Source: a virus
DNA length: 25,192 nucleotides
Direction: 5' to 3' (one strand)
IMG/VR virus record: IMGVR_UViG_3300046387_000236
Location: 1-25,192 of that record
The position numbers and the translations under genes are program-made. The notes beneath the pieces were generated by a model that was not told the origin of the DNA, did no database searches, and saw only the letters and a list, made by a program, of their open reading frames with translations. Below, one piece after another: positions 2,937-6,678 of the stretch; within the stretch, counting starts at the first letter, position 1, and every line of letters begins with the position of its first letter.

Positions 2937-2953
2937 TTTTTAAGTATTTGTTA
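2926..2953 (-). promoter_or_regulatory. Late promoter motif before TerS
   Basis: Minus-strand TAACAAA (2947-2953), exactly 12 bp, then TTATTGTAT (2926-2934) followed by AATTG, so a TATAAT hexamer is present. It lies 24 bp before the ATG at 2901. This is one of five exact composite copies in the window, all upstream of late genes. Confidence 0.65.
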
Positions 2954-3398
2954 ATTCAAACTGCTCTGCTAAATCTGGATTAACCTTTTTTAATTGTGAT
3001 TGTAAATACTTATATCTTATTTCTAGTTCTTGAAGCTGTTCGTTTATTTTGGTGTATTGCCCCTCCCAAAATCCTTCTAATGTTTGTGACCTTTTAAAGG
3101 CATCAGGGTTTAATTCTTTTGCTTTAACAAGTCTATTGTTTAATGTAAGGTAATCATTCTCAAAGTCCTTATCATATAAAAGCCAATCTTTAGCCTTCCT
3201 TGTAAAGTATAATACTGTTGAATGGTCTTTTTGCATTGTTGCACCTATAGCGTGTAAAGAGTAATGAGTATGGTCTCTTAATAGTTTATAGTATATTGCT
3301 CTTGCTTCTATGTATGGTCGTTTCCTTGTGTTTATAGTAATATCTAACTTATAGTAATCTTCTACTAATGTTCTAACTATTTTTTGTGTGTTTGTCAT
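2940..3398 (-). CDS. Orphan DnaA domain-IV-like DNA-binding protein
   Basis: Residues 1-80 of this 152-aa protein resemble domain IV of the replication initiator DnaA. They include RKRPYIEARAIYYKLLRD, where DnaA has R.R....AR.ia.yL.r, and MQKDHSTVLYF (55-65), which matches the DnaA signature GxRDHSTVxHA that contacts DnaA boxes. No AAA+ domain is present. The rest is a charged region and a coiled coil (about 113-145) that could dimerise. It overlaps the gene before it by 26 bp and sits directly before the terminase genes. It may mark the phage origin, compete with host DnaA, or regulate transcription or packaging. The domain call is solid; the role is inferred. Confidence 0.85.
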   Translation of the reverse strand: MTNTQKIVRTLVEDYYKLDITINTRKRPYIEARAIYYKLLRDHTHYSLHAIGATMQKDHSTVLYFTRKAKDWLLYDKDFENDYLTLNNRLVKAKELNPDAFKRSQTLEGFWEGQYTKINEQLQELEIRYKYLQSQLKKVNPDLAEQFELTNT

Positions 3399-3594
3399 CT
3401 TCTATTTTATTTATTAATTCCTTGATTGTCATATATCCTGATTCGTGTATTGCTTTTAATATACCTGCACACGCCTCATACTCTTCTTCCTGTTCGTAAA
3501 TTTCAATTGCCTGTTCAAGTTCTTTTATATCTCTGCCACTTGATATATCTATTAAAGCCAAAAGGTAAAACTCTTCAATTAAATCTTTATTCAT
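3373..3594 (-). CDS. Small acidic helical protein, 73 aa
   Basis: Not recognised. The protein is highly acidic and helical (LEQAIEIYEQEEEYEACAGI), with the look of a short helical-repeat or adaptor protein. Its ATG at 3594 immediately follows the stop of the 155-aa protein, and its end overlaps the DnaA-like gene by 26 bp, so the three are translationally linked. It might be a partner of either neighbour; nothing in the sequence decides this. Confidence 0.65.
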   Translation of the reverse strand: MNKDLIEEFYLLALIDISSGRDIKELEQAIEIYEQEEEYEACAGILKAIHESGYMTIKELINKIEDDKHTKNS

Positions 3595-4062
3595 TTACAC
3601 GCAAAGAAGTTCTTTTTTGGCAGGTGCTCCAACGGTATGGTCTCCCACTATCCATCTACTAAATTGATTGTCTTTACTAATATATAACATTTTTGCTTTT
3701 TGTATATCTAAAAAATCCACAGCCTTTACCATATTATCTAAAAAAGGCCTAAAGGGAACAACTATTACATAGGGTTCTTTAACATATTTATGGTATTCAA
3801 ATAAATATGCTGTTTGTATTCTTCCTAAATTATCTTTCTGATTTACTGTGCTTGAATATTCACGAGCCTGATTAAATGTTAACCTTTTTCCCTCAAAAGT
3901 ATTATTATTTGAAATTGTTTTTATTTCAGCTGTCATATTTATAATCTGGTCTGCCCATATAAAATCCTTATCACCAAGGTATAAATTTTTATGACCATTA
4001 AAGTATTCGCTAACGGTGCCACCGAAAAATAAATCATACTGATTTTCTTGTATATTTGCCAT
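3595..4062 (-). CDS. Unknown protein in the DNA-modification cassette, possible PD-(D/E)xK nuclease
   Basis: This 155-aa protein starts MANIQENQYDLFFGGTVSEY at the ATG at 4062, one base after the glycosyltransferase stop. The longer frame from 4122 would overlap the previous gene by about 60 bp and is not needed. Residues 29-50 include GDKDFIWADQI and AEIKTIS: an acidic residue (Asp 31 or 33), then Glu 46-x-Lys 48, then a Gln (FNQAREY) about 15 residues later. This spacing resembles PD-(D/E)xK nucleases, but I cannot assign a family. Its position directly behind a dioxygenase and a glycosyltransferase suggests a third component, for example a nuclease for unmodified DNA or a further tailoring factor. 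That function is inferred. Confidence 0.75.
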   Translation of the reverse strand: MANIQENQYDLFFGGTVSEYFNGHKNLYLGDKDFIWADQIINMTAEIKTISNNNTFEGKRLTFNQAREYSSTVNQKDNLGRIQTAYLFEYHKYVKEPYVIVVPFRPFLDNMVKAVDFLDIQKAKMLYISKDNQFSRWIVGDHTVGAPAKKELLCV

Positions 4063-4063
4063 T

Positions 4064-4837
4064 TTAAAATAATTGTGTTTGTTGTTTGTTTTGTTTTTTG
4101 TCTCGTAATCTAAGCTCAGCATTGCCTGTGGATTTTCTTATATACATTGTACAATAATCTTGAAAGTTGTCTTGTATCCATTTTATTGAGTCATATACAT
4201 ATTTTTTTGTTCTTATCTCTTGTAATCCTCCTGGTTCTCTGTAATAATTGGATTTTACTGTAACATAGTCAATTCTAGTGACAGAACCATTTTTAATATA
4301 TTGCCTTATGCTGTATTCGTAATCCTCACCGTGATTTGTTTGCCTTTCTAAATATTTATCGTGCTGCACAATAACGCCAAACATAGATGCTATAATATAA
4401 CACAATTTAGTATAGATCCTGTCTTCCATAAAATAAGGGTTCGATGCTGCATAAATACCAAACACATTGTTTTTATTCTTTATACATTCATTAAAACCTA
4501 ATTGTATTACATCTGTCTCAAGATTTTTAATTTCCTCAAGATTATTATCTTTTTTTATCATTACTGAATCAATATCATCATCGAACATCATTAGATACGT
4601 TCCTTCAGAATAGTATTGTTCAATGAAATTTCTTTGTTTGCCTATCGTTGGTACACCTACTACTATTTTATATTCATCTCCTAATGATTTTTTATACAAA
4701 ATTTCCTCATCATTATCAGCAACAAATACAGTTATCCTGTTTCTATCTATATTGTAATTATCTAATAATTTTAATGTTTTTTCTTTAATTGTATTGTGTC
4801 TTTTGTACGATGGTATCGCTATCTTATAATCTATCAT
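4064..4837 (-). CDS. TET-associated-type DNA glycosyltransferase
   Basis: This 257-aa GT-A-type glycosyltransferase starts KIAIPSYKRHNTIKEKTLKL, the usual nucleotide-sugar-binding first strand. It has FVADNDEE (38-45), TIGKQRNFIEQYY (64-76) and MMFDDDID (83-90), whose DDD is the metal-binding DxD motif. The acceptor side contains NHGEDYEYSIRQY and a C-terminal WIQDNF region. Its architecture and its 4-bp ATGA overlap with the TET/JBP dioxygenase gene match the TET-associated glycosyltransferases (TAGT) described in phages with oxidised bases. The expected role is transfer of a sugar from a nucleotide donor to the hydroxymethyl base made by the dioxygenase, masking phage DNA from host nucleases. 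The sugar and base cannot be read from sequence. Confidence 0.85.
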   Translation of the reverse strand: MIDYKIAIPSYKRHNTIKEKTLKLLDNYNIDRNRITVFVADNDEEILYKKSLGDEYKIVVGVPTIGKQRNFIEQYYSEGTYLMMFDDDIDSVMIKKDNNLEEIKNLETDVIQLGFNECIKNKNNVFGIYAASNPYFMEDRIYTKLCYIIASMFGVIVQHDKYLERQTNHGEDYEYSIRQYIKNGSVTRIDYVTVKSNYYREPGGLQEIRTKKYVYDSIKWIQDNFQDYCTMYIRKSTGNAELRLRDKKQNKQQTQLF

Positions 4838-5712
4838 AATTTTAAATATCCTGTTTGATCCATTTTAATCCTTTTTAATTCTTCCTTTGGTGATTTACAC
4901 ATATACATATATTCCCTATAGTACATCACAAAAGTAATTCTTTTCCAATCATCACTGCAATTCTTGAATTCAGTATTACCGTGCCATTTATGAACATCAA
5001 CAAATAATATATCCGTATTTTTTAAATCTAAAGCAATGCCATACTCGGGCAGAACAAAATACCCACCATCATAGGAACCTTCTCGATATATAATTAAATT
5101 ACCAAACCCTTCAGGATAATCTCCTGCATCCTTGTGTACTGCCGTTTGAAAGTTTCTGTTTACCGTAACTGTAGTAAAACTTGTATTATCAATTATATAA
5201 TTTTGATTAGTTCCATCTGCTATAGACCTTTGTTTTTTATAATGTTCTGGGCATAATTCTTTATATTTGTTGTCTACATATTGAACAAATGGAATACCTG
5301 ATTTGTATTTATCAAAATAATCCTTTGCAAACGCAGTTTTTCTGCATACAGCTACTGTTCCACTACCTGGTCTTGCATCCATAAATCCCACATTCCCACT
5401 TTCTACCTTAGGCGAAACGTCAAATTTGCCAACTGTACCATCTTTTCTTATTTGTTTATGATAACCGCCAGCAGCTATGCCCCTGCCACCGTTTAAATTT
5501 ATTGAATCCTTAAATGCATCATATCCTGATTTTAATACATCAAAAGGTATTGCATTTTTTCTAAACCTAAATAATAATTGATTTGTATTAATATCGTATC
5601 CATCGCAATCATAATCTATTAATGTATTCCAATGCTTGTCTTTTAGAAATTTGCCTTTTAATTTTAATGCCTGCTTGTCGCTTAATATTTTTTTTACCTT
5701 AATTGTTTTCAT
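4834..5712 (-). CDS. TET/JBP-family 2-oxoglutarate/Fe(II) DNA base dioxygenase
   Basis: This 292-aa protein carries the signature of phage TET/JBP dioxygenases. FQTAVHKDAGDYPEGFGN (188-205) supplies the iron ligands His 193 and Asp 195. YDGGYFVLPEYGIALDL (214-230) is the typical double-stranded beta-helix core. VDVHKWHGNTEF (238-249) supplies the distal His, most likely His 244. WKRITFVMYYRE (256-267) contains Arg 258 for 2-oxoglutarate. The N-terminal half includes GGRGIAAGGYH (75-85) and MDARPGSGTVAVCR, also usual in this group. The reaction is hydroxylation of a pyrimidine methyl group (5-methylcytosine or thymine) in DNA. The start overlaps the 72-aa gene by 14 bp, and the stop overlaps the glycosyltransferase by ATGA, so the two enzymes are made together. 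All key residues are present, so it should be active. Confidence 0.9.
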   Translation of the reverse strand: MKTIKVKKILSDKQALKLKGKFLKDKHWNTLIDYDCDGYDINTNQLLFRFRKNAIPFDVLKSGYDAFKDSINLNGGRGIAAGGYHKQIRKDGTVGKFDVSPKVESGNVGFMDARPGSGTVAVCRKTAFAKDYFDKYKSGIPFVQYVDNKYKELCPEHYKKQRSIADGTNQNYIIDNTSFTTVTVNRNFQTAVHKDAGDYPEGFGNLIIYREGSYDGGYFVLPEYGIALDLKNTDILFVDVHKWHGNTEFKNCSDDWKRITFVMYYREYMYMCKSPKEELKRIKMDQTGYLKL

Positions 5713-5917
5713 ATTTATCCTTTAATATTTTTAATAAAAAATCACTAAGATTTCCCTTTTGTTGATAATCCTCATCGTACTCAAACCTTATGCCAAGCTT
5801 ACAAAGTCGTTTAAATTCCTTTAATTCTTCGGTACTAAAATAAAGTATTGTTGTGGTTATTTCAGTGTTATCTTCTGGACTATTGTCTATACCCCAGTTA
5901 TCTTCAAATAGTTTCAT
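5699..5917 (-). CDS. Small acidic protein upstream of the dioxygenase, 72 aa
   Basis: Starts with ATGA at the end of the exonuclease gene and overlaps the dioxygenase start by 14 bp. The central part TTTILYFSTEELKEFKRLCK, followed by KGNLSDFLLKILKDKY, looks like a beta strand plus two helices, the size and shape of ribbon-helix-helix-like or related small phage proteins. I recall similar short proteins in flavobacterial phages without assigned function. It could be a regulator or accessory factor of the modification cassette. Confidence 0.7.
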   Translation of the reverse strand: MKLFEDNWGIDNSPEDNTEITTTILYFSTEELKEFKRLCKLGIRFEYDEDYQQKGNLSDFLLKILKDKYENN

Positions 5918-6678
5918 AATATTCCTCGCATTACATATTGATCTAAATCATTCTCTTGTTCAAAAAAGTATTTGTAATTGTCTACAGCTTGTATAAACTT
6001 TTGCTCGCCACGCTTTAAAAAGTCATCGCTTACATCGTAAATGCCTATATCAGTACTGGCTTTGTCAACTATTAAAAATACAAATTTACTTTTATTAAAT
6101 AGCTTTAGGTATAGCCACGCTTGTAAGTCATACCCATACTTGTCAGCACTATATTTAAAAGTGTTGAGGTCGGCTGTGGTTTTAAGATCTATAATAGTAT
6201 CTTCCTGTATAATATCAGCCTTCCCCCTAAATGGTAAATCATTTATCATTTCTATAGCAGGTACTTCAAACTCTGATTTGTTTAGCAGCCTTATTGCTGC
6301 CTCATTCCTTAACACCGCATCAGCTAACCTTTCTGCTGCACTTCTTTCTTTTGTTAAAAACACCTCCCCATACTTTGATTTTGCATCTTTATACTTGTTG
6401 GTGTTTTTTGTAGAAGCGTCAACAAAATATAGCTTGTCAATTTTGTGTGGCTCAAGTACCATCCAATGTACTAACTTACCTGCTGCAAGTGCAGGGCTGT
6501 CAATATCATTACCATACTTTAATATATTCCTGTATGTTTTAGGGCTTTTTAAAATTGTTTTTAGGCTACTACTGCTTAAAGCGTATTTACCTAAATGCCC
6601 ATAGTAAAACTCGTCATCGTACATTTGGGTTAGTATTTCTTCTTTGCCCCAGTGGTCACCGTTTAATAGTGTTATCAT
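5914..6678 (-). CDS. RecE-like PD-(D/E)xK exonuclease
   Basis: This 254-aa protein matches the phage RecE/exodeoxyribonuclease-VIII-type PD-(D/E)xK family. SSSSLKTILKSPKTYRNIL (35-53) is the family start, and GKLVHWMVLEP (67-77) carries the conserved His. Active-site residues appear as FRGKADII (Asp 155) and IIDLKTTAD (Asp 164-x-Lys 166), followed by YGYDLQAWLY with Gln 186. It would degrade one strand of duplex DNA ends to expose single strands for annealing, working with the ERF protein (10874-11383) and the SSB. Unusually, it is about 4 kb from ERF. It lies directly upstream of the modification cassette and overlaps both neighbours by 4 bp. Confidence 0.88.
   Translation of the reverse strand: MITLLNGDHWGKEEILTQMYDDEFYYGHLGKYALSSSSLKTILKSPKTYRNILKYGNDIDSPALAAGKLVHWMVLEPHKIDKLYFVDASTKNTNKYKDAKSKYGEVFLTKERSAAERLADAVLRNEAAIRLLNKSEFEVPAIEMINDLPFRGKADIIQEDTIIDLKTTADLNTFKYSADKYGYDLQAWLYLKLFNKSKFVFLIVDKASTDIGIYDVSDDFLKRGEQKFIQAVDNYKYFFEQENDLDQYVMRGIL

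Follow-up and report, generated by a model that had tools for sequence, protein, structure and literature searches.

The DNA analyzed here (the window, 25,192 nt) comes from the IMG/VR virus record IMGVR_UViG_3300046387_000236 and belongs to a marine phage. Its minus strand carries a run of five overlapping or abutting genes, which encode a RecE-like nuclease, a small acidic protein (small72), a TET/JBP-family dioxygenase, a glycosyltransferase (GT), and an ExK protein, p175 (Table 1). Beyond p175 lie the genes of a 73-aa protein (p73) and a DnaA C-domain protein, followed by the terminase genes. The DnaA-like protein (positions 2940-3398), which has a C-terminal (domain IV) helix-turn-helix, is conserved across the family in this place, with the cassette on one side and the terminase genes on the other. 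The overlaps amount to 4 bases between RecE and small72 (5914-5917), 14 bases between small72 and TET (5699-5712), and 4 bases between TET and GT (4834-4837), the last being the ATGA noted in an earlier, sequence-only reading of this DNA. The small acidic protein that it saw upstream of TET is present, and the RecE-like nuclease, directly behind which it placed the pair, is confirmed by a DUF3799 match. The downstream ExK protein is also there, but not with the 175-aa frame first assigned to it (3595-4122): the true start is almost certainly the internal ATG at 4062, because homologues begin there and the overlap with GT disappears.

Table 1 Features of the cassette and its upstream neighbor (window coordinates)
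Feature	Position	Strand	Remarks
RecE-like nuclease	5914-6678	-	DUF3799, PD-(D/E)XK-like
small72, acidic, 72 aa	5699-5917	-	N-terminus M-x-L-F-(E/D); constant upstream partner of the TET family
TET/JBP-family 2OG-Fe(II) dioxygenase, 292 aa	4834-5712	-	PF12851; H193, D195, H244, R258
TET-associated glycosyltransferase (TAGT), 257 aa	4064-4837	-	PF20691; D86-D88, D172
GT C-terminal QTQLF, aa 253-257	4067-4081	-	predicted to dock on the host beta sliding clamp
p175 (true length almost certainly 155 aa), ExK protein	3595-4062	-	candidate PD-(D/E)XK-like nuclease
p175 N-terminal QYDLF, aa 8-12	4027-4041	-	predicted clamp-docking motif
Exchangeable cassette	3595-5917	-	identity drop versus the relative L067

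The profile searches that the sequence-only reading had suggested as a check place both enzymes above Pfam's own cut-offs. TET matches Tet_JBP (4e-28, 98.2 bits; cut-off 34.9), and its four catalytic residues, all present as claimed, do not vary across 39 aligned sequences, some of them from distant phages, with identity down to 24%. GT matches TAGT (2.9e-16, 60.4 bits; cut-off 27.5), and the DDD metal motif claimed for it corresponds to D86-D88, of which D87 and D88, together with D172, are found in every one of 34 homologues. In PDB sequence searches with TET, GT, p175, and c10 (the counterpart of p175 in many related loci), the only match was from the TET profile to TET2, through which the window TET can be aligned with TET2; the alignment assigns D198, Y264, and R266 to its base pocket. 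With the gene neighborhood constant in more than 100 loci, these families and catalytic residues support well the DNA hypermodification operon that had been proposed, which is a system of an already known kind: pairs of TET and TAGT-type enzymes protect phage DNA. TET/JBP-TAGT clusters were reportedly predicted by Iyer and Aravind, and phage TET-glycosyltransferase clusters are said to have been described by Burke in 2021 and Pyle in 2024. As no DNA glycosyltransferase other than the TAGT was found here, GT probably adds the first sugar.

Deposited records and PHROGs label the phage TETs of Cr30, DLP6, S-CBWM1, and Acadian as "SNF2 DNA repair protein" or "queuine tRNA-ribosyltransferase." The latter, a PHROG label for a TET relative, was rejected, as Acadian gp2 matches Tet_JBP (at a score below the cut-off).

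The most constant partner of TET is small72, a point missed by the sequence-only reading. It lies upstream of TET in 41 of the 46 loci first collected and in nearly all later ones, and its L3 and F4 are invariant among homologues. It has no match in Pfam or NCBIfam and no convincing one in PHROG. Divergent members (L037-L040, L131) start with MTQGALF, MTQGFLF, or MNEQAELF and thus hold a full QxxLF, whereas the main group has M-x-LF only.

The comparison covered 44 IMG/VR loci, the Nonlabens phage P12024L, and 80 further loci found later via c10; many or most of the contigs are fragments, and homologue counts are to be read as counts of non-independent events. Most loci share a fixed order of RecE, small72, TET, a variable block, the 73-aa protein, the DnaA-like protein, and terminase. 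The variable block consists of TAGT and p175 in the window and elsewhere of c10 with TAGT, c10 with a kinase, c10 with an amino-acid:DNA transferase (ADDT; PF18724, 1.3e-21) and a kinase, or other combinations. The name "kinase" is our own reading of this P-loop protein, for which no family scored above its cut-off. Separately, L042 (10001-14011) carries a TET-ADDT-PALP-kinase cluster in which the TET frame is split and a 233-aa protein of no known identity ends in QLALF.

Sister contigs of the window phage carry a kinase (L065, L066) or ADDT (L077) in the same slot. The closest comparison is offered by the 33.2-kb contig G046 (locus L067), which is nearly complete because its two ends adjoin one another in the window. 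With the window it shares 94-99% identity in RecE, helicase, ERF, capsid, and protease (RecE 98%, capsid 94%), and its slot holds a TET (66% identical to the window TET), c10, and GT15, a TAGT. In a sliding comparison with L067, identity is 93-99% upstream of about position 5934 and 52-76% across most of small72-TET; no homology is found from 4835 to 3595, and homology is back at 3593. Nucleotide alignments stop exactly at the TET stop codon and restart at the start of p73, and in a comparison with L066 the next gene past the cassette again shows 95% identity. It follows from this profile that the span 3595-5917 is itself a cassette exchanged as a unit, which the sequence-only reading had missed. 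In a tree of 66 TETs, the ten linked to p175 form one clade (98/94). Over 49 rows of this tree there is a single switch between p175 and c10, as against nine or more switches of decorating chemistry among the 38 c10 rows; thus TET and its ExK partner move together, and the decoration does not move with them.

The invariant residues of p175 in 15 sequences, namely D31, D33, E46-I-K48, and Q65xxxY69, give the D...ExK plus QxxxY pattern (D-x12-E-I-K with QxxxY) of PD-(D/E)XK nucleases. In four loci (L055, L058, L060, L061), p175 stands behind an ABC-ATPase-GNAT protein and a small protein in place of TET-GT. The small protein is of the ASCH/DUF3850 type in L055 and L058, and we read the fusion as a putative Mom-like acetyltransferase. 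Likewise, in L134 c10 is located behind an MT-A70 methyltransferase. The c10 model is confident (pLDDT 91.6) and weakly resembles RecU (E about 0.5, TM about 0.3) as well as a phage NO VEIN C-terminal protein (TM 0.64). Pairing of p175 and c10 with modification enzymes of differing chemistry suggests an enzyme, for instance a nuclease, whose action the mark blocks, and p175 may be a candidate nuclease that spares modified DNA. There is an even chance, however, that p175 is a regulator, a mark reader, or an inhibitor of host defense instead: it has no family match, its AlphaFold2 model is poor (pLDDT 46.8) and finds no structural match with Foldseek, and it is missing from the TET-GT operons of L158, L161, L164, L191, and L193. 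The nuclease-like invariant residues, the pairing with Mom-like and ASCH proteins, and the weak resemblance of its positional counterpart to RecU and to a NO VEIN protein argue against these roles. We detected no relation between p175 and c10 with hhalign, and a sequence search found no relatives of either in bacterial genomes or named phages.

As to which base is modified, the choice between 5mC and thymine is nearly even. In the first case, for which the chance is close to one in two, TET would make 5hmC from 5mC placed by a host (or unrecognized phage) methyltransferase, in the manner of characterized phage TETs, which reportedly travel with C5-methyltransferases (Burke 2021). By alignment, residues D198, Y264, and R266 provide an Asp to N4, an aromatic stack, and an Arg to O2/N3, as in a 5mC-type pocket, and match the 5mC-contacting residues of CMD1, NgTet1, TET2, and CcTet; D198 and R266 correspond to Asp350 and Arg418 of CMD1, Asp234 of NgTet1, and Arg393 of CcTet, all of them 5mC enzymes (PMC7854593, PMC11040006). 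Relatives that encode a C5-methyltransferase (L022, L026, L029) share this pocket. Against 5mC, the window itself encodes no C5-methyltransferase, and among the 16 records that reach 28 kb and have a small72-type TET, PF00145 is missing from 15, complete P12024L and near-complete G046 being two of these; G046 holds no methyltransferase of any Pfam family. A search of 32 records for thymidylate-synthase homologues gave none. Reliance on host 5mC would mean sparse and host-specific marking.

That no source of 5mC was found in these genomes favors thymine, to which we assign a probability somewhat under one-half; the pathway would then be a phage counterpart of that of base J, leading from T through 5hmU to glycosyl-5hmU. 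The swapped-in modules, P-loop kinase and ADDT, are enzymes of known 5hmU hypermodification, although both also adjoin a C5-methyltransferase in L022, and a ParB-TET-aGPT-PPlase2-5hmU kinase cluster has been annotated as thymidine hypermodification (PMC11955845). However, Asp at position 198 can serve as bond acceptor for cytosine's N4 amino group but not for thymine O4, and neither CMD1 nor its D350N mutant gave a thymine product (PMC7854593).

Beta-clamp binding peptides follow the consensus QLxLF and are usually C-terminal (PMC4549789). GT and p175 each carry a QLxLF-like peptide at a flexible terminus, QTQLF and QYDLF, respectively. The window proteome has three QxxLF matches, two of them in the cassette; the expectation is 1.8 anywhere and 0.025 at a C terminus. 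QxxLF forms the C-terminal end of 47 of 48 non-redundant GTs, with Q(-5) kept in 46, L(-2) in 45, and F(-1) in 46 and positions -4 and -3 variable; it is also found near the N terminus of all ten non-redundant p175 proteins and at the C terminus of 12 of 15 kinases. The ABC-GNAT protein ends in a motif of this type (QISMF and QISLF in L055 and L058). The strict motif is seen in only 13 of 31 c10 sequences and in none of the Gly_transf_sug proteins, and the RecE, DnaA-like, TerL, sigma-like, VRR, ERF, and helicase families have no QxxLF at their termini. The window TET has no clamp motif, and a full QxxLF in small72 is limited to the few divergent members. These predicted motifs in GT and p175 were missed by the sequence-only reading and appear to be new, within a literature search mostly of journals free of subscription. 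As no beta clamp gene was found in the small phages, the host clamp would serve.

GTs of the window type (62-73% identity) occur in three settings, which together form a natural control and give the clamp reading its strongest support. With small72-TET, nine of nine end in QxxLF. In T4-like phages with a DLP6-type TET, all 13 GTs and all 15 TETs have a TLExFF tail, matching [STN]L[DE]x[FL]F or nearly so, and in the ParB clusters none of 15 GTs has a tail. A DLP6-type (T4-type) sliding clamp is encoded in nine of ten T4-like records and in none of eight small-phage records, as determined by direct search with the DLP6 clamp; PF02916 (T4 clamp) was dropped because it was silent in controls. DNA polymerases of the T4-like phages end in TLDSFFA (DLP6) and TLEDFFG (Melnitz), the tails being taken from named phages because no DNA polymerase was recognized in the T4-like contig G084. 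These tails resemble the clamp epitopes of T4 gp43, gp55, and gp33, which are of a hydrophobic-acidic type (PMC2988020). At least one expected T4-like clamp client, the gp33-like late-promoter regulator of C48C1, lacks the tail. Among 1059 ORFs of the T4-like loci L183-L229, 64 of the 65 with a TLExFF-type tail are TET or GT.

A GT tree computed with the tails removed shows seven or more changes of tail type, and the L177 GT carries QxxLF within the ParB-type clade. The tails appear to have been rewritten to suit the replisome, since tail type follows clamp type through these repeated changes, and we infer that modification is coupled to the clamp. Where the GT tail is absent, ParB may act as the clamp adaptor; the ParB-like proteins of marine loci have no clamp motif. 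Acadian gp1 (L151:1-816), which is the ParB-like protein from the TET-TAGT cluster of a mycobacteriophage, has QLNLF at residue 17. In T4, the alpha-glucosyltransferase binds its own clamp, gp45, and this contact did not account for the dominant sugar linkage or the amount of each linkage (PMC13216743), so clamp contact may matter little. It is improbable that QxxLF and TLExFF bind some other partner or have a structural part in the GT, for although the motif is read from sequence alone and chance can yield short motifs, the same motif is terminal in several unrelated cassette families and in no other family of the loci, tail type tracks clamp type, and the alternative tail matches the C termini of clamp-using DNA polymerases.

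Like the known phage TET-glycosyltransferase clusters, the window has a phage operon beside the terminase genes in which TAGT comes after TET; it differs in having no C5-methyltransferase, a fixed small72, unit-wise exchange, and predicted clamp-docking tails. P12024L (gp25-gp28) shares small72 (75%), TET (63%), and a TAGT. Its GT ends in QLEIF, and the next gene, an N6/N4 methyltransferase, ends in QQTLF; however, this TAGT is of another clade and p175 is absent. The mycobacteriophage Acadian and the Arthrobacter phage Prairie (ParB-TET-TAGT-PIG-L) have a TET-TAGT pair with a related TAGT, which in Acadian is 34% identical to the window GT and located by the terminase genes, whereas they have a ParB-like protein for small72, a GT without the tail, and a sugar deacetylase gene. 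The TAGT of T6/T2 (beta-glucosyl-HMC alpha-glucosyltransferase, PF20691) belongs to the same GT family with a GT-A fold, but it puts a second glucose on glucosylated 5hmC. T4 alpha-glucosyltransferase likewise pairs a DNA glycosyltransferase with a replication clamp (gp45 bound there, docking predicted here); unlike the window GT, it has a GT-B fold, 5hmC from a dCMP-hydroxymethylase, and a phage-encoded clamp. The base J pathway (JBP1/2, JGT) also combines a TET/JBP hydroxylase with a glycosyltransferase on DNA, yet it is eukaryotic and its thymine substrate has been shown.

Our preferred reading, which we consider likely, is that of a horizontally exchanged hypermodification cassette in which a TET-TAGT pair decorates a pyrimidine, GT and the ExK protein dock on the clamp, and the latter acts as a nuclease on unmarked DNA. 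In phage DNA, TET would hydroxylate a pyrimidine at its 5-methyl group and the TAGT would add a sugar to the hydroxyl so made, which may protect the DNA. GT and the ExK protein, through QTQLF and QYDLF, would dock on host DnaN because the phage is without its own sliding clamp, and new DNA would be decorated behind the fork. The motif-less TET would probably be brought in by small72, which is translationally coupled to it, and the ExK protein would most likely be a nuclease on DNA without the mark, either the host's or a rival's. More tentatively, and with a probability nearer one-third than one-half, the whole may form a replication-coupled self-marking and self-sparing unit, with marks made at the host clamp, a clamp-docked nuclease, a decorator that is swapped, and a docking peptide rewritten for each clamp.

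If this is true, hypermodification would be delivered by the replication clamp and not by a free-floating post-replicative reaction, a short tail would reveal which clamp a phage uses, and the movement of these enzymes between phages with different replisomes would be accounted for. Moreover, such near relatives with differing DNA chemistry would allow the selective advantage that each modification gives against host defenses to be measured.
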